Source: Acidobacteriota bacterium (GTDB taxonomy: Bacteria > Acidobacteriota > Terriglobia > UBA7540). Taken from it: a DNA stretch of 44,062 bases. The notes beneath the pieces are model-generated. The model had not been told where the DNA came from. It saw nothing but the letters and a program-made list of their open reading frames with translations, and did no database searches. Location of the stretch: the NCBI GenBank assembly GCA_902812415.1, contig CADDZJ010000023.1, positions 1 to 44,062 on the forward strand. The letters run 5' to 3'. The translations under genes and the position numbers were made by a program. Positions 7,173 through 38,139 of this stretch are shown piece by piece (positions within the stretch are counted from its first letter, which is position 1; every line of letters starts with the position of its first letter).

Positions 7173-7201
7173 TTGACCCTTCCCAAGGCCAGCGATATAC
7201 T
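7173..7201 (+). promoter_or_regulatory. strong sigma-70-type promoter of the HEAT/haem gene pair
   Basis: TTGACC (7173-7178), a 17-nt spacer and TATACT (7196-7201) give a near-consensus promoter 52 nt before the preferred ATG at 7254. Confidence 0.72.
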
Positions 7202-7253
7202 GAGCGTCAGCATGATCGTTCAATATTAGATGAATGATCCGAGAGGAATCGCT

Positions 7254-10200
7254 ATGAGTTCTGCTCGCGGGCACATTTTCCGAAAGAAAGCGATTGCACT
7301 CTATGTAGCGACGGCTGTAATCGTCTTGTGCGCCTGGCATCTTGCCCCTTCGCGCGCCGCATCCCGAGGCTTGCTCCCGGCAAGCCCCGGGGCCTCTTCT
7401 TTGAGCTTTGACCATACGCTCCAAGGCTCTATTCATCCTGGGCAGACGCTCGCCTGGCAGACTCCGGAGCTGAAAGCTGGCGCGCTCTATTCGGTCAACA
7501 TCAGCCTGGATTCGCCGGCCAGCCTGACAACTCCCGACGAGCTTGTACCGCGCAAAATCGCTTCGCCCATTACCTTCAACGTGGTGAAGAAGGATATCGT
7601 CCCCATCGTGCCGCGTGTTGTGGTCCATTTTGATTCCGCCGGCAATCCGGAAATCAGCAAGAAACTCCATTCCGGCGACCCGGGAACCTATTTTATTATC
7701 CGCGCCGCTCAGGCAGGGCCGGCCCGCCTTACGCTGGATGCGCCTGCCAGCGCCCCATTAACGCCCATTCACTTCGAGGCTGAAATCCGACCGCTCAATG
7801 TGAGCCAGCAGAATCAGGCGCAAATTGTTCCCAATACCGCCCGCGACTGGCAGCACGCTTCGCCCATGATTCTGGGCAAAACTGTTTTTGGAACCTCGGA
7901 TGACATCGAATATCTTTACAACACCGATGAAGGGAAGGTGGGGTGGCAGTGGCTCACGTTCGATTACAACCTTCCCAAGCCCAAGCTCGTTTTCTTTGAG
8001 CTCGACCTGCTTGACCGCGACGTGCCTTGCACGCTGAAGATTTATCGCTTGGAAAATGGCCCGCAGGGGCCGCGCCTGGTGGAATACACGCAGGGAAAAG
8101 ATCCCACCGAAATCCGGCATGATGACCAATCGGATGAATTAGTGGACTTCAAGATGATCACGCGCGTGCTGACGCCCGGCCGCTATTATTTGAGCGTCAA
8201 GTCTAATCATCCGCGCTGGAGCCTGCGCACGACGCTTTACAACGTGCCGCCTTATCAGGATCCCCATGAAGCCGTGCAGGTGGCGATGCGCTACATGGTG
8301 GACGTGGGAGACTCCTTCTTCTCAAACACGCCTCGCAAGGGCGCGGTGCGAACGCGGGCTGAAAATGTGACCGATGAAACGGAGCGCTGCATCACATGCC
8401 ATCCTGCGCAATTCACCATGCTGAGCGTGCTGAGAGCGCAGCATCACGGTTATTCCGTGGCGAACAAGCCGGAATACAAGTTCATGATCGACAAGCTTTA
8501 CAACGCGCCCGCGCCGTTTTACGGATTCCCGAATACCTACTGGCTGCGGTTTGAACTCGCGCCCACCAACGGCATCAGCCGCCTCGGAAAATTGCTTCTG
8601 ATGTATGAAGACGGGGTAAGCCATCATCCGACTGAAATTCCGGGCGACAGCGCCAATTACATTCGTCTGGTTTACGATGCGCGCAATCTTCTGCCCCGGG
8701 TGGATAAAGCGCACTTCGTTCCTGAGTTCGAGCCGGCCAAAACCCGCAATTATGAATTCGACGGCAATCGCCCCATCAGTGATTTCCGGGTGGCTTCGGA
8801 CTCGTGGTTTGACCTGAACGACCTCGCCCAACGAGATCATAACGCCGCTTATGCCCGGAGCGCCGCTCACCTGAAGGCCCTGATGACCACGGCGCCCACG
8901 AACGATCTTGAAGATCTCGTCGAGCAAACAAAGGGCATGGTCGATATGGGCGACGCGCGATTCAAGCCGATTATCGCGCAGAACATTCAAAAGATCCTTG
9001 CCAAACAGCACACCGACGGCGGATGGGTGACCGCCGAGTATATGTCGAACGAGCAGTTTTTCGACGCCGCTGCGCGCGCGCCCTTTGAGAAGAAGACCGA
9101 TCCGAGCCTGCAATTCATGACCGGTGAAGTGCTCTACACCTTGAAGATCGCCGGCTACAACATGCAGGACCCGCGCGTGCAGAAAGCCATCCACTGGCTG
9201 CTCGGCTTGCAAAAACCTTTCGGCGGCTGGCTTGACAACAAAGGCGAACTCTTCCTTCAGCCGCACAAAGAGACCTGCTGGGCGCTGATCGCGCTTTCCA
9301 GCATCTATCCGGAATCCAATCCGCCGCTCGCGCCGGCGCCAGCTCCGCCTGCCAGCGTCCGCGACGCGCAGAACACACCCCTGGTTTCAACCCTTCAGTG
9401 GCTGGACCAGGTTTGGTATGACCGGAATGTTTCCGATTTGAAGCTTGTTCTGCCGTTGCTCAAAAACCCCGAGCCGCTCATCCGCGAGGCGGCGGCATCC
9501 GCAATAGGCCGCATGGCGGTGGATGCACCAAATCCTGCTCCTTTCCGCGCGGCCGTTCAGCCATTAATCGCCCTGTTGGGTGACCACACCAAGATGGTGA
9601 GCCGCGCCGCTGCGTGGTCGCTGCGGCAACTGGGCAATGACGGTGTGGGCATTGACGCGATCAAAGTCGCGCTCAACAGCCCCGATGATTACACGCGGCG
9701 GGGCGCTGCCCGCATCTTTTACCAATACTGGTATCACATGATTCCGCGGGAGGACGTAGCCCGAGCTCTCATCCAGCACGTGAACGATCCGGATATGCTG
9801 GTGCGGATTGAGAGCCTGAAGGCGCTCTGGCGGTGGTGGTATCGGACGCCGGATTTTGCTCTGCGCCGGCAGATTGAGCGCGCATTTCTGGAGCGCGCTG
9901 CAGTCAAACGCGAAGATCCCGTGGTACGCCTGAATGTGGCGCAGGCTCTTTACAACATTCTGGACGATAATACAGTCCAATTCCACCGCAACTGGCTGCG
10001 ATCCATGGCCCTTCAGAAGGACCGCGACCGGGCGGAAGCCGCGCGCATCGCCAACGTCGAGCGCCCGCTCGCTGAAGAACTGGCAGCAGCGCTTCGTTCT
10101 CCAAATGTCACATCACGGCAGACTGTCCTGACCGCATTGGATTACTACTTCATGCGCGGCGGCATCGGCAATGATTATGACTCGATCATGTTTTATGATC

Positions 10201-10535
10201 GCCAAGCGGCTGAAACCGTGGCCCGCGCGCTTCTGCCGCTGATCAAGTCGCCAGACCCGCTGATTGCCGGGAAGGCCCTGGAAGCGGCAGCCGTTGCGCG
10301 CGATGCGCAGGACCGTGACCTGTTGCTGGCCGTGATGGACCATCTGACCTCCAAGGATGCGCGCGCGCGCGAAGTGGCTGAGGAAGAGCTGAGCAAGTTC
10401 CCAACGCAATACGCGCCCTTCAGTCCGGCGCTCGCGAAAGATCGGACGGCCCCGAGTCGGAAGGCTCACCGAGGGAAATCGAACCTTCAGGTTGCAACCC
10501 AAACAACAGCCAGCGGCGCGGGCGGGGGCCGGTGA
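7254..10535 (+). CDS. exported composite protein: one c-type haem site, toroid-like repeats and HEAT repeats
   Basis: The ATG at 7254 has AGAGGA 8 nt upstream and is preferred over the ATG at 7230, giving 1093 residues. A basic N-terminus and a hydrophobic segment (about 10-28) suggest export or a membrane anchor. Residues 40-360 look beta-rich. A single haem-binding motif CITCH lies at 379-383. Residues 575-700 carry two motifs like those of the alpha/alpha toroid of squalene-hopene cyclases (QHTDGGW, about 586-592, and LQKPFGGW, about 651-660). I see no cyclase active-site DxDD motif. From about 730 to 1075 there are HEAT/PBS-lyase-like helical repeats. The partner gene follows after 70 nt. 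I do not recognise a named family. An extracytoplasmic redox scaffold is an inference. Confidence 0.85.
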   Translation: MSSARGHIFRKKAIALYVATAVIVLCAWHLAPSRAASRGLLPASPGASSLSFDHTLQGSIHPGQTLAWQTPELKAGALYSVNISLDSPASLTTPDELVPRKIASPITFNVVKKDIVPIVPRVVVHFDSAGNPEISKKLHSGDPGTYFIIRAAQAGPARLTLDAPASAPLTPIHFEAEIRPLNVSQQNQAQIVPNTARDWQHASPMILGKTVFGTSDDIEYLYNTDEGKVGWQWLTFDYNLPKPKLVFFELDLLDRDVPCTLKIYRLENGPQGPRLVEYTQGKDPTEIRHDDQSDELVDFKMITRVLTPGRYYLSVKSNHPRWSLRTTLYNVPPYQDPHEAVQVAMRYMVDVGDSFFSNTPRKGAVRTRAENVTDETERCITCHPAQFTMLSVLRAQHHGYSVANKPEYKFMIDKLYNAPAPFYGFPNTYWLRFELAPTNGISRLGKLLLMYEDGVSHHPTEIPGDSANYIRLVYDARNLLPRVDKAHFVPEFEPAKTRNYEFDGNRPISDFRVASDSWFDLNDLAQRDHNAAYARSAAHLKALMTTAPTNDLEDLVEQTKGMVDMGDARFKPIIAQNIQKILAKQHTDGGWVTAEYMSNEQFFDAAARAPFEKKTDPSLQFMTGEVLYTLKIAGYNMQDPRVQKAIHWLLGLQKPFGGWLDNKGELFLQPHKETCWALIALSSIYPESNPPLAPAPAPPASVRDAQNTPLVSTLQWLDQVWYDRNVSDLKLVLPLLKNPEPLIREAAASAIGRMAVDAPNPAPFRAAVQPLIALLGDHTKMVSRAAAWSLRQLGNDGVGIDAIKVALNSPDDYTRRGAARIFYQYWYHMIPREDVARALIQHVNDPDMLVRIESLKALWRWWYRTPDFALRRQIERAFLERAAVKREDPVVRLNVAQALYNILDDNTVQFHRNWLRSMALQKDRDRAEAARIANVERPLAEELAAALRSPNVTSRQTVLTALDYYFMRGGIGNDYDSIMFYDRQAAETVARALLPLIKSPDPLIAGKALEAAAVARDAQDRDLLLAVMDHLTSKDARAREVAEEELSKFPTQYAPFSPALAKDRTAPSRKAHRGKSNLQVATQTTASGAGGGR

Positions 10536-10605
10536 CGATAAGTCTTCCGGTCGCTGCCAGGCAGGGCCTCATCCCTGTGCCCATTTTCATTAAGGAACGA
10601 CTTTC

Positions 10606-12297
10606 ATGAGGTTTTGGGTTCAGAGTCGAAACTTCATTTTCCTCGCGCTGCTCGTCGTCTGTGTCGCGCTCGTCCTGAGCGGACCGAAGTCGAGATCAAC
10701 ACCCTCAAAGTCGGAACTCACTCCGGGAACCCGTTCTTCAGGTCCTGCCGCGAATCCCACGGCGGATCATGGGATTGTCTCCACCCTGGAAGTCCTACTG
10801 CGCAGCCCACAACCCGATGTAAGAGCCTCAGCCCTGGAGTGGATCGCGCGAGATAAGCGGGCGCAGAATCCTGAATTCGTCTCTCAGATTTTTGCGGCGC
10901 TCAAAGACAAGGATGGGAACGTTCGAGATAAAGCGTTAACCAATATGGGTTGGATACTGGATCGATATCACGGTTCGACCACCGGTGACCAGGCGCTTTC
11001 CACAATCCAGAAGGCTTTGAAACAGACCTCGGATCACGCGGCTCAGTTGGCCGCTCTCGACCTGATCGGGGGCTCCGGGCAGGGAGGAGTTTACTACAAT
11101 GCGGACGCAACTCACGAAGATCCATTGCTGATCTCTGACCCCTCGATTCGCAGCCTGCTTGTTTCCATGCTGGCGAATCCCCAAAGCTCGCTTCGCCCTC
11201 AGCTTCTGCGGCTAGTCAGCGGATCGCCCAGCTTGCAGTCTGACCCGGCGATGGTCGGCGCGGTGGCTGCCGCTCTGAATGACGATGACTTGAGCGTGAG
11301 GAGCGATGCAGTCGATTTGCTGGTCAAGATTTATCAGCAAGGCCCGCCGATCCTGCGAGCGCAAGCGAAAAACCGCCTGCATGTGGCGCTTGAGACCGGC
11401 GATCCCAATGTTCAATTGCGGGCGTCGCGCGCGTTGGGCGTTCCGATTCCCCCGCCTCGCCCCCAGCCGCGGCTGGTTTCTTTAACGGGCGAAAAAGTTT
11501 CCATGGCCGATGTGCCCTTCGACTTTAACTTCTTCACAGCTTTCGTTCAGCCTCTGTTCGTGAAGCGTTACGGCAACGCCGCCTGCGTGGATTGCCACAC
11601 GCCGGAGTCGAACACATCAGGAAAATTTCGCATCCTTGCGGCCGGGCCAGGCGGCCATTATACGCTGGAGCAGTCCCGGATCAATTTTGTCTCCGTACTT
11701 GCGGTGATCAATCGCAAAGATCCGATGAAGAGCAAGCTGCTGCTCAAGCCGCTCGATCCCACCACACGCGAAGGCACAATCCGAGGTTTGAATCATGACG
11801 GCGGCGTGTTCTGGGAAAACCAGTATTCTCCCGACTTCGAAATTGTGGCTGACTGGCTTAAGGGAGCCAAGCTTCAAACACCTCCGGAAAAACAACTGGA
11901 TTTTGCGTATTTTGAAAAGCACATCGAGTCGATCTTTTCCACTCCCGGCCCCGATGGATTCGCCTGCATTAATTGCCACTCCACCCATGCCATCCTGCAT
12001 CTCGAATCACCTGAAACTCGCAACGGCAAGCTTTCAATCGAGCAATTGATCAACAACTATCAGTCGGCGCACCGCGTGGTTGATGAGGCAGCGCCCTCGG
12101 ATAGCTACATCGTTCGCAAACCCACCAGCCCGCGCGAAGGGGTTCCGGGCGGGCTTTCTCATGCGGGCGGCGTCCGCTGGCCAGACAAGAAAGAATCGTG
12201 GCAGTATAAGGCCCTCATCACCTGGATCGGCATGCCGAATCTTGCCAAGAGTCCGACTCAAACAGCCAAGGCCAGGGCGGAAGGCTCATCCTACTGA
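10606..12297 (+). CDS. exported HEAT-repeat protein with two duplicated c-type haem modules
   Basis: This 563-residue protein starts at an ATG with AAGGA about 9 nt upstream. Residues 8-26 form a signal or anchor helix. HEAT-like repeats occupy roughly residues 55-285. Two cytochrome-like modules follow: CVDCH at 327-331 and CINCH at 454-458. Each is followed by a segment ending GLxHxGGVxW and a Trp-rich helix (GLNHDGGVFW, GLSHAGGVRW), so the module is an internal duplication. The conserved His could be the distal haem ligand, as in the cytochrome-like domains common in planctomycetes (inference). It lies 70 nt after the other HEAT/haem gene and almost certainly shares its promoter. The two products may form one electron-transfer complex. 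Confidence 0.87.
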   Translation: MRFWVQSRNFIFLALLVVCVALVLSGPKSRSTPSKSELTPGTRSSGPAANPTADHGIVSTLEVLLRSPQPDVRASALEWIARDKRAQNPEFVSQIFAALKDKDGNVRDKALTNMGWILDRYHGSTTGDQALSTIQKALKQTSDHAAQLAALDLIGGSGQGGVYYNADATHEDPLLISDPSIRSLLVSMLANPQSSLRPQLLRLVSGSPSLQSDPAMVGAVAAALNDDDLSVRSDAVDLLVKIYQQGPPILRAQAKNRLHVALETGDPNVQLRASRALGVPIPPPRPQPRLVSLTGEKVSMADVPFDFNFFTAFVQPLFVKRYGNAACVDCHTPESNTSGKFRILAAGPGGHYTLEQSRINFVSVLAVINRKDPMKSKLLLKPLDPTTREGTIRGLNHDGGVFWENQYSPDFEIVADWLKGAKLQTPPEKQLDFAYFEKHIESIFSTPGPDGFACINCHSTHAILHLESPETRNGKLSIEQLINNYQSAHRVVDEAAPSDSYIVRKPTSPREGVPGGLSHAGGVRWPDKKESWQYKALITWIGMPNLAKSPTQTAKARAEGSSY

Positions 12298-22929: not shown

Positions 22930-23586
22930 TCAGCTCTGGTGTTCGGGATGCGTGCAGGCTCCGGGGAACGACTCGTGGTAAGTGTCCCCGCCATATTGCA
23001 ATTCCTGCTCCAGCCCGATTTCTGAAGTATAATATCCGAAAAGCGTCCAGTCCTTGATATCCTCGAAGAAGCGAATGCCTGGTTGGTCCTCAGGATTTTT
23101 ATTTTCCAGGTCGGCTAAAGGTTCAAGCAACGATGTTTTCTGCTCTTGAGTTAAATCGACGAAGGGCTTTCCGTACTGACTTAAGGCACGGCCATCCACC
23201 CACGCAAGGCCTTCCAGGAACTGCCGCTGTGCATCAGGTTCCTCGTCATTCAAGAAAAGATCAATGGTGCGATTGACCCGCGCTGCTTTAGCTCCGGGCG
23301 TGTCCGTCTCTGGAATGATCAGATCCGTCAACGCAATGACAGTCTCGTTTTGATGTGGATCGAGGAAGAGAGGTTTCCAGTTGGGATCGGCAGGCGCTTG
23401 GACTCCGCTCGCAGCGCCTCCACAGCAGGCAGGTGCATCCGCGCGGGTGTCAGACTGTTCGAGAATGGGAAACACCGCCGTGGCGCCCGCTCCAAGAGCA
23501 ATCTTCTTCAGCGCCTGCCGCCGTCCCTCATTCTGAACCTTTGGAAATTCACTTATGGCCTGCTCGCCTTTAGGATCCCATTCCAT
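22930..23586 (-). CDS. gluconate 2-dehydrogenase subunit 3 family protein
   Basis: The protein has 218 residues from the ATG at 23586; a GTG at 23601 would add five. A twin-arginine-like signal, RRQALKKIALGAGATAVFPI, lies near residues 22-42. The mature part has the family pattern LTDLIIPETDTPGAKAARVNRTIDLFLND and a helical region with Trp and Asp residues (GLAWVDGRALSQYGKPF). Such small subunits stabilise or export GMC-type flavoprotein dehydrogenases of sugars and other polyols. Here the cytochrome gene follows, but no GMC dehydrogenase gene is present in the window. The TonB receptor lies upstream on the same strand. Confidence 0.85.
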   Translation of the reverse strand: MEWDPKGEQAISEFPKVQNEGRRQALKKIALGAGATAVFPILEQSDTRADAPACCGGAASGVQAPADPNWKPLFLDPHQNETVIALTDLIIPETDTPGAKAARVNRTIDLFLNDEEPDAQRQFLEGLAWVDGRALSQYGKPFVDLTQEQKTSLLEPLADLENKNPEDQPGIRFFEDIKDWTLFGYYTSEIGLEQELQYGGDTYHESFPGACTHPEHQS

Positions 23587-23664
23587 CGTGATTCTCTTCA
23601 CCCAAGCCGGATGTTACAAGGTGCCCGCGAAAAAATCAAGCGAAGTCGTGACGACTGTCAAAGC

Positions 23665-35152: not shown

Positions 35153-35530
35153 GGGGGCGTATCGGTTTCGACGGAAGCTGTAACGCCTGGAAGGCATGCC
35201 GGGGGCCACACCACCCGTAATCGGCGTGGAACAACACAACTGCCAACAATACGCAGTTTGCCCTCGCTGCCTAATTAGGCAGCGCGTCTTCTTCGTCCGG
35301 CTCGCGGGACGGGGAAAGATGTCGATTCAGCGGGCTGGCCTGGCATTTGCCGCCTGAAAATGCCGGGCGAGGCTTTCCTGAGCAATCGGGAGAGCAATCA
35401 GGCTAGCTTCTGGCTTGTTCTTGCTCGTTCCTGAGAGCCAGGAGCGAAATCCTGAGCGAACGAGATACGCATGTAGTCTTTCAGTTGTAAGGCTTTTCGG
35501 ACGGGGGTTCAACTCCCCCCGCCTCCACCA
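35153..35530 (+). ncRNA. ssrA: transfer-messenger RNA (tmRNA)
   Basis: tmRNA frees stalled ribosomes and tags the incomplete protein for degradation. The 5' end GGGGGCG pairs with CGCCTCC over seven base pairs (one G-U), with A and CCA following, so the mature RNA ends at 35530 with CCA encoded. The T-arm-like GGGGTTCAACTCCCC precedes it. The tag reading frame at 35242-35271 encodes ANNTQFALAA followed by TAA (35272-35274); the ALAA end is the classic degradation signal. The total length of about 378 nt is normal for a one-piece tmRNA. It lies between the anSME gene and the convergent PQQ dehydrogenase. Confidence 0.97.
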
Positions 35531-35614: not shown

Positions 35615-37258
35615 TCACTTTGCAGACTGATGGATGAGGTTCTCTGGCAAGGTGAATGCAAAGAGGAGATCCTGAGCGCTGACGATAAGATACTGTCGGC
35701 CATCCAATTCAAAGGTCATGGGGCAGCTTTCCATGCGGCCACCCAGATTCACGTGCCATAGGGTATGGCCAGTGGCTGGATCGAGGGCGAGGAGATTGCC
35801 CGCATTGTCAGCCGTGAAAAGCAGATGGCCCGCCGTGGTCAGGATGCCGGCCGTGCCTTCTCCCTTTCCGATTTCATGGTCCCAGACGATTTTGCCCGTG
35901 CGATAGTCAATGGCGCGAATTGCGGAATCTGCATAGAGATCGCGGTCGCGACCTGCCCAGCCCTCCGGTTTGCCGGTTGCAGTCAAATAAAAAATGCTGA
36001 ATGTGCGGCGCGCGTTCACATAGAACAATCCGGTCTGGGGATCAAAGCTGGGCGCCATCCAGTTGGTGGCGCCGTCGGAAGCCGGCTCGACCAGCGCGCC
36101 ATCGGGTCTTGGAGCGTAATCCGCTTTGGCAATCGGTCGCCCGCGAGAATCAATGCCGGAAGCCCAGGTTTCGTCAATAAACGGCGCGGTCACCAGATGC
36201 TCGCCGTTCGTGCGGTCGAGCACAAAGAAGAAACCGTTGCGGCTGGCCTGCGCCAACAACTCGCGGGGCTTGCCGTTGAAGGGAGCGTTGAACAGAACCG
36301 GCGTCTCGACGGCGTCCCAATCATGGACATCATGCGGTGAGGGCTGGAAATACCATACAAGCGTTCCTGTATCCGGATTAAGCGCCACAATCGAACAAGT
36401 GAACAGATTATCCCCCGGCCGCACTTCGCCTGCGAGCACCGGATTGGGATTGCCGGTTCCCCAGTAAAGCAGGTTGAGTCTGGGATCGTAGCTGCCCGTC
36501 ATCCAGGTCATGCCGCCGCCATGACGGATGGCGTCGCTATTGCGAGGCCACGTTTCTGACCGTGGCTCGCCGGGCTTCGGCTCCACATACCAGCGCCACT
36601 GGATTTTTCCGGTATCCGGATCCAAGGATTCAAGGAAACCCGGAATGTCTGTCACGTCGCCTGAGACACCTACAATGACGTGATTGCGGATCACCAGGGG
36701 CGCCATGGTGGAAAAGTATCCCAGCTTTGGATCGGCCAACTCCCTGATCCAGCGCACGCTGCCATCTTTCGCGTTGAGCGAGACTAACTGAGCGTCTGGG
36801 GTCGTGAAATAGAGCCAGTCGCCGTACATGGCCACGCCGCGATGGCCGATGTGATCTCCCTCGGACGGGCGCTGATAGTGCCAGATCATCCGCCCGAAGC
36901 GTGCATCCACGGCCCAAACATGGTCAGGCGCCGTGAAATAGAGAATGCCGTTCACTTCAAGCGGCGTGGATTTGATCGCCTGCGTATGGGTTTGGAATAT
37001 CCAGGCCAGGCGAAGCGAGCCAATATTTTTCACATTGATCTGGTTCAACACGCTGAAGCGACGTCCGGAATAGTCGCCGTTATAGGTGGGCCAGGTATCT
37101 GTGGCGGGCTTAAGGAGAGCGCTTTCCTGAAGTCCTTGTGATCTTCCTGCGGGTGGGGAAAAGACAATCCCCCACAAGAAGAGCATCAGCAGCAGCCTCT
37201 GAAATCGAAGGCATAGTTTTGATCCAAGGTCCGAAACTTGTTCTCTACCCCATGTCAT
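35615..37258 (-). CDS. PQQ-dependent dehydrogenase (quinoprotein alcohol dehydrogenase type)
   Basis: The ATG at 37258 gives 547 residues; the frame extends to a TTG at 37321 without a better signal. A hydrophobic stretch (about 24-34) and PAGRSQG suggest a signal peptide with a long n-region. The body is an eight-bladed quinoprotein propeller with repeated W motifs (for example DGSVRWIREL, DTGKIQWRWY, TGTLVWYFQ, TGHTLWHVN). The segment HDVHDWDAVETPVLF carries the presumed catalytic Asp. I find no adjacent Cys-Cys pair, which many methanol dehydrogenase-type enzymes have. The diheme cytochrome gene upstream is a likely electron acceptor. The substrate is unknown. Confidence 0.9.
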   Translation of the reverse strand: MTWGREQVSDLGSKLCLRFQRLLLMLFLWGIVFSPPAGRSQGLQESALLKPATDTWPTYNGDYSGRRFSVLNQINVKNIGSLRLAWIFQTHTQAIKSTPLEVNGILYFTAPDHVWAVDARFGRMIWHYQRPSEGDHIGHRGVAMYGDWLYFTTPDAQLVSLNAKDGSVRWIRELADPKLGYFSTMAPLVIRNHVIVGVSGDVTDIPGFLESLDPDTGKIQWRWYVEPKPGEPRSETWPRNSDAIRHGGGMTWMTGSYDPRLNLLYWGTGNPNPVLAGEVRPGDNLFTCSIVALNPDTGTLVWYFQPSPHDVHDWDAVETPVLFNAPFNGKPRELLAQASRNGFFFVLDRTNGEHLVTAPFIDETWASGIDSRGRPIAKADYAPRPDGALVEPASDGATNWMAPSFDPQTGLFYVNARRTFSIFYLTATGKPEGWAGRDRDLYADSAIRAIDYRTGKIVWDHEIGKGEGTAGILTTAGHLLFTADNAGNLLALDPATGHTLWHVNLGGRMESCPMTFELDGRQYLIVSAQDLLFAFTLPENLIHQSAK

Positions 37259-37344
37259 AACGCTTAGCAGTCTGTTGAAATTGGGCGGGCGTTCGCGGCT
37301 GCCGTTTGCGACAATCCGCAAGGAATGCGGCCCGCCCTGGTTAG

Positions 37345-38139
37345 TTACTTCAGAGTTTCAAGATAAGCAAAGAGGTTGTGAACATCGGCCTGGCTGAGCT
37401 TGCTGAGCAAAGCCCGGTGGGCCGCCAGAGGGTCATGCACCTGAACTTTCACCTGATTCCTGGAGAAAGACCGATACCAGCCTGAGGCATCCTGTAACGC
37501 AACCGAAAACTCATCCAGATGAACAAGCTTGCCTTCCACTTTTTCGCCCGATGGCAGCACGACGGTGACGGTGGAGGTTGCCGCTCCGCGCGGATAAAGC
37601 ATTCGAGCCTCCAAGTCAATCGGCGCATACTTGCTCGCGATGTGCGCCAGGTCGCCTGTGGTCGAATGGCAGGCCGAGCAGCCGCCCGCTCCGTTGAAAT
37701 AAGCTTTCCCTTGCGGCGCATCACCGGTGAGCAATCGCGAGAGCGGGTAGGTGTCCGAAACTCGGCCCGAGCGCATTGCCCCGTGGATGCGCGCGTGAAG
37801 AAAAGCGGCGATATCGTCGATCTGCTCCTGGGTCATGGTAAACGCAGGCATGCCCTTCTGCGGACGACCGTTGCGAATGACCGCGCCAATCAGGTTTCCG
37901 CCCACATCATCTGCGACGAGTTTCGAGCGGATCAAATCCGGTCCGCGCGCGCCCGTGGCGTCGTTCCCGTGGCAGAAGCCACAGTTTGCCTCGAATTGCT
38001 TCTGGCCGCGCTCGATAGCAGCTGCCTGGCCAGAGGTTGATTGCGCAAAGCTGTTGTAATCGGTGAATATCGCCGCAGTGAATGTGATAATCGCGGTGGC
38101 GCAGAGAATAAGGAACTTATGGGTGGTCTTCAGATACAT
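37345..38139 (-). CDS. periplasmic diheme cytochrome c
   Basis: The 264-residue protein has a signal peptide (about 1-32) and two haem motifs: CGFCH at 53-57 and CSACH at 154-158. The first domain has a likely Met ligand in KGMPAF (M97). The C-terminal part carries a small beta-rich segment (VTVVLPSGEKVEGKLVHLDEFSVALQD) before a final helix. It lies immediately upstream of the PQQ dehydrogenase on the same strand (86 nt), so it is probably the electron acceptor of that enzyme. Confidence 0.92.
   Translation of the reverse strand: MYLKTTHKFLILCATAIITFTAAIFTDYNSFAQSTSGQAAAIERGQKQFEANCGFCHGNDATGARGPDLIRSKLVADDVGGNLIGAVIRNGRPQKGMPAFTMTQEQIDDIAAFLHARIHGAMRSGRVSDTYPLSRLLTGDAPQGKAYFNGAGGCSACHSTTGDLAHIASKYAPIDLEARMLYPRGAATSTVTVVLPSGEKVEGKLVHLDEFSVALQDASGWYRSFSRNQVKVQVHDPLAAHRALLSKLSQADVHNLFAYLETLK

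Follow-up and report, generated by a model that had tools for sequence, protein, structure and literature searches.

Two adjacent genes of a soil acidobacterium, here called genes 1 and 2, probably encode the subunits of one membrane-anchored, periplasm-facing c-type redox complex or scaffold with three haems. Sequence comparisons indicate that the pair represents a single protein in split form; two paralogous lineages carry it as one chain (types B and C below). The relatives that join both halves in one chain suggest that the two proteins act as one complex, and electron transfer by this two-subunit scaffold is its most likely function. Little is known of the periplasmic redox proteins of the Acidobacteriota, a phylum abundant in soil. 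The lineage-restricted proteins described here, of 1000–1600 residues with predicted c-type haems and in split and fused forms, are a concrete target for work on haems and partners.

The gene pair and its single-chain relatives

The window, i.e. the whole stretch of DNA analysed (44,062 nt), carries the pair as plus-strand open reading frames at 7230/7254–10535 and 10606–12297, and both gene calls were confirmed. The start of gene 1 at 7254 is favoured over that at 7230 because the sequence AGAGGA stands shortly upstream of it. A gap of 70 nt separates the gene 1 stop from the gene 2 start, and the terminator scan showed no terminator-like site in it. The preliminary description had credited the pair with a strong shared promoter; one sigma-70-like candidate is present (Table 1), but the word strong is weakly backed, as five promoter-like matches were found in the region around it compared with 2.5 ± 1.5 in shuffled sequences. 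The dN/dS of the pair (0.06–0.10, with dS near saturation) indicates purifying selection. Other genes in the window include a tmRNA gene (35153–35530, tag ANNTQFALAA) and, on the minus strand, a gene of the gluconate 2-dehydrogenase subunit 3 family (22930–23601) and a PQQ-dependent dehydrogenase-type gene (PF01011) adjoining a cytochrome c gene with two CxxCH motifs (Cytochrome_CBB3; 35615–38139).

Table 1 Features of the gene pair, in window coordinates.
Feature	Position	Strand	Remarks
Sigma-70-like promoter candidate, TTGACC-17-TATACT	7173–7201	+	10/12 consensus matches; consensus match only
Gene 1	7254–10535	+	1093 aa: TM helix, two predicted jelly-rolls, CxxCH, partial alpha/alpha toroid, HEAT solenoid
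N-terminal hydrophobic helix of gene 1 (signal or anchor)	7272–7343	+	residues 7–30, structure model
Beta-sandwich (jelly-roll) region of gene 1	7389–8243	+	residues 46–330, fold like SIDT1/SIDT2 ectodomain
Alpha/alpha toroid of gene 1, squalene cyclase type, incomplete	8262–9323	+	residues about 337–690
CITCH of gene 1, predicted haem c site	8388–8402	+	residues 379–383
His457 of gene 1, candidate distal ligand of haem 1	8622–8624	+	invariant across the family; putative ligand
QW motifs in gene 1 toroid	9006–9026 and 9210–9230	+	QxxxGxW at residues 585 and 653
HEAT solenoid of gene 1	9330–10403	+	residues 693–1050
Gene 2	10606–12297	+	563 aa: TM helix, HEAT solenoid, two tandem haem modules
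HEAT solenoid of gene 2	10768–11442	+	residues 55–279
Haem module 1 of gene 2	11518–11880	+	residues 305–425; CVDCH 11584–11598, HDGGVFW 11794–11814
Haem module 2 of gene 2	11881–12240	+	residues 426–545; CINCH 11965–11979, HAGGVRW 12160–12180

Among the genomes of the family-level set, gene 1 has three kinds of relative. In type A, the split pair, gene 1 is about 70–80% identical to that of the window; type B is one open reading frame of about 1590 residues with the gene 1 and gene 2 parts in the same order and three CxxCH motifs; and type C is one open reading frame of about 1440 residues, with two CxxCH motifs and without one of the gene 2 haem modules. A type C gene is also present in the window's host genome, on a short contig (C205) where it is cut at the contig end. 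In the tree of the gene 1 part, the root of which is not fixed, a well supported branch separates each of types A, B and C from the rest, and B is closest to A. Because types B and C both have the fused form, the simplest history is that the chain was split in the lineage leading to type A.

Seven of the 39 genomes of the family have an orthologue of gene 1, and exactly these seven have one of gene 2. The two genes are adjacent in G000, G161, G177, G182 and G183 (the G183 contig ends within gene 2), while in G160 the end of gene 1 adjoins gene 2 on contig C115 and the rest of gene 1 is on C16. Genomes with the two genes apart, which the preliminary description counted against its proposal, are represented by one case, G159 (gene 1 on C60 with other genes downstream, gene 2 inside C9), in which both genes are nonetheless kept. 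Linkage is therefore not absolute and retention is joint.

Scanning a single genome from each species, in a set that may omit records of the window's own genome, gave 49 loci, 47 of them in Acidobacteriota records; the family was found almost only in this phylum. The others are a type C locus in a metagenome-assembled genome (MAG) labelled Rhodanobacteraceae (L095), which is probably mis-binned, and a cyanobacterial locus (L121) that matches over the HEAT part only. The fused form is carried by the cultured Acidicapsa dinghuensis and Occallatibacter savannae. In two MAG contigs (L095:8884–13182 and L108:200–4505) the type C gene is broken into two open reading frames.

Domains and predicted haem site of the first protein

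As the preliminary description had stated, both proteins combine HEAT repeats (Pfam HEAT_2, E-values of 1e-15 for gene 1 and 2e-13 for gene 2) with CxxCH motifs, one in gene 1 and two in gene 2. It had also taken both proteins to be exported; each does begin with a hydrophobic helix, but these helices could equally be uncleaved membrane anchors.

Structures were predicted with AlphaFold2 from alignments of loci fetched from genome contigs, and the models are without haem. The model of gene 1 (mean pLDDT 74.7, pTM 0.79) consists of a helix at residues 7–30, strands at 56–330, toroid helices to about residue 690 and HEAT repeats to about 1050, with low pLDDT in the CxxCH region (residues 359–382). 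The region from residue 46 to 330 has no Pfam match and is predicted to form two jelly-rolls, with a fold like that of the ectodomain of SIDT1/SIDT2 (VIA Z 12.6, 195 residues aligned, rmsd 4.6, 7% identity). A role in RNA transport was not adopted from this likeness, which is read as a shared jelly-roll arrangement or fold only. The rows of the fold search cover residues 46–351 and 693–1050 of gene 1 and 13–282 of gene 2 and barely extend to the toroid and the haem modules, and for these regions no cytochrome fold is among the matches listed.

The toroid-like QW repeats without an acid motif, noted earlier from the sequence, are borne out. SQHop_cyclase_C (PF13243) matches residues 577–682 of gene 1 with 31.3 bits (cut-off 26.1), two QxxxGxW motifs are present, and a motif search of the whole protein revealed no DxDD. 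HEAT/ARM repeats and squalene cyclases dominate the PDB sequence search with gene 1. The profile match and the QW motifs would be expected if gene 1 encoded a terpene cyclase of hopanoid metabolism that has degenerated, which we regard as extremely improbable: DxDD is missing, the match spans about 106 of the 319 profile positions and the score against the NCBIfam squalene-hopene cyclase model is 27.2 bits, with a cut-off of 322.7. A terpene cyclase function of gene 1 was rejected on the absent DxDD and the partial match.

The single CxxCH of gene 1 (residue 379) has a residue-shuffle P of 0.0006 and is unchanged in 28 relatives of about 30–80% identity. It is isolated, and no cytochrome model matched it in the Pfam scan, as might be expected if the CxxCH motifs bound a metal such as zinc, or formed disulphides, instead of carrying haem. 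This is most unlikely given the N-terminal export or anchor helices, the cytochrome c assembly proteins encoded by the host genome, and the resemblance of class I cytochromes to the modules of gene 2.

Predicted haem modules of the second protein and genomic neighbours

The CxxCH motifs of gene 2, at residues 327 and 454, were obtained in 0 of 20,000 residue shuffles. They lie in modules of ~110 residues that are tandem duplicates of each other (E-value 1e-12), and in each module an HxGGxxW motif follows 65–70 residues after the CxxCH, a spacing kept in types B and C. The conserved HxGG at this distance leads to a prediction of His/His haem ligation. Each CxxCH sits within a compact module of ~100 residues, as in class I cytochromes c, and from the sequence we infer that the modules are His/His-ligated class-I-like cytochromes. 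In the AlphaFold2 model of gene 2 (pLDDT 68.8, pTM 0.46) the HEAT part is confident and the haem modules are of low confidence.

The modules have CxxCH, Pro, His-x-Gly and Trp in common with other cytochromes of the Acidobacteriota. The gene 2-type module was found in 8 of 119 sampled Acidobacteriota genomes, where it stands alone, single or doubled, or is joined to a YVTN propeller or a helical region. Fusions, N- or C-terminal, to a YVTN/YncE-like propeller are seen at L017:367–1872, L018:544–1977 and L023:517–2217. Cytochrome_CBB3 matches related modules below its cut-off, and the module itself falls below the cut-off of every curated Pfam or NCBIfam model tried.

Several type C loci have genes for a di-haem CCP/MauG protein, a CarboxypepD_reg protein and a YVTN propeller upstream, and two PQQ_2 propeller-type genes divergent; the upstream set is seen at L086:5519–8661. 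DUF1501 and PSCyt2/PSD1 genes lie near the type C gene of L090 and PSCyt genes near that of L095. The CCP/MauG, propeller and PSCyt neighbours tie the family to periplasmic haem chemistry. They are also what might be expected of a haem enzyme rather than a relay, with haem 1 by the toroid pocket catalytic (peroxidase- or synthase-like) and fed by the C-terminal haems, analogous to the set-up in hydrazine synthase (HZS) or MauG-type systems. Among PDB chains, the neighbouring CCP and propeller of type C match the gamma and beta subunits of hydrazine synthase, and HZS-like alpha/beta-gamma sets have been reported outside anammox bacteria (PMC12758564). Such an enzyme is nevertheless unlikely, as these neighbours have ordinary CCPs and an S-layer propeller, rather than HZS, as their best PDB matches; HZS_alpha matched neither of the two proteins (to E 1) nor the fused forms (to E 0.05); the split pair is without these type C neighbours; and CCP_MauG (PF03150) has no match in the window's host assembly, which is 96% complete. 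A hydrazine-synthase-like complex at the window was rejected for want of a CCP in the host genome and of an HZS_alpha match. We give little credence to the related idea of a hitherto undescribed haem-enzyme family, in single-chain and split forms, whose terpene-cyclase-like toroid would have become an active site with haem c, connected by HEAT solenoids to bis-His cytochrome modules.

The neighbourhood comparison revealed no conserved third gene beside the split pair. Three genomes have a serine hydrolase gene of the beta-lactamase family (PF00144) next to the pair, on differing sides (L073:6305–7732, L076:13808–15916 and L061:3226–5280); it was rejected as a conserved third gene because these genomes represent two genera and it is absent at the window. 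This gene, the glycoside-hydrolase-like genes near the pair in some genomes, and the binding-type folds that make up most of both proteins would all suit a surface or periplasmic capture scaffold whose jelly-rolls, toroid and HEAT repeats bind polysaccharide or peptide, the haems being accessory or structural. We think this improbable, since the neighbours are not conserved and mere decoration would hardly account for three CxxCH motifs accompanied by a conserved second His.

Proposed function and comparison with known systems

The preliminary description had guessed at a haem-bearing scaffold for periplasmic or outer-surface electron transfer. A scaffold made of both proteins fits the fused homologues, the co-occurrence of the genes and the conserved CxxCH and HxGG motifs; the outer-surface part of the proposal is not backed by any conserved gene for an outer-membrane partner. 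In the electron-transfer scaffold that we favour, each protein would be anchored by its N-terminal hydrophobic helix. The jelly-rolls of gene 1 may bind a ligand or partner and its squalene-cyclase-like toroid, without the cyclase acid motif, would hold one haem, and it also has a HEAT solenoid. Gene 2 would add another HEAT solenoid together with two class-I-like modules that are predicted to be His/His-ligated and would lend themselves to electron transfer. The HEAT solenoids of both subunits would pack as in the single-chain relatives, so that haem 1, near the toroid pocket and perhaps the site of reaction or entry, would line up with the two transfer haems; these may exchange electrons with a carrier in the periplasm. 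The scheme builds on the observed sequence features, family, fused forms, co-occurrence and selection, from which haem attachment, complex formation, ligation and any direction of electron flow or substrate are inferred.

A literature search for HEAT repeats with cyclase and haem found nothing relevant. The earlier statement that no named system has HEAT repeats with CxxCH sites was too strong, as PVC-type proteins that join Piru_Ver_Nterm (TIGR02604), HEAT_2 and the CxxCH domain TIGR02603, such as Lac161_ORF7, have been described (PMC5342196). Like the pair, they have both HEAT repeats and, at the C terminus, a CxxCH cytochrome domain. By contrast, the pair has jelly-rolls and a cyclase-like toroid in place of the dehydrogenase domain, and consists of two separate subunits with two tandem HxGG modules. 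TIGR02604 and TIGR02603 matched neither gene 1 nor gene 2 (NCBIfam, to E 1) nor the fused forms (to E 0.1), and PSCyt1, PSCyt2 and PSD1 domains (PF07635, PF07583 and PF07587) were absent from genes 1 and 2 to E 1.

Squalene-hopene cyclase (PF13243) shares with gene 1 part of the alpha/alpha toroid and the QW motifs; gene 1 differs in lacking DxDD, in having a CxxCH in or beside the toroid and in a match that is not full-length. The di-haem Fe(II) oxidase FoxE (PDB 5mab) aligns with the gene 2 module profile through one haem domain only (E-value 3.3e-4, with a marginal domain i-Evalue of 0.007). The FoxE haems are reported to have Met distal ligands (PMC10654088), whereas the gene 2 module has a conserved His near the MPPG of FoxE, the HxGG region lying opposite it in a weak alignment; a HEAT half is absent from FoxE. 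Hydrazine synthase (PDB 5c2v) and HZS-like operons have a similar parts list, in that type C relatives adjoin CCP-like and propeller genes, but no homology to the alpha subunit was detected and these neighbours are absent at the window. The haem-module proteins of the Acidobacteriota (L013, L017, L019 and L026) share the ~110-residue CxxCH...HxGG module and are without the gene 1 half. The combination of HEAT repeats with c-type haem is thus already known; what is new is the toroid, the jelly-rolls, the split and fused forms and the HxGG module.
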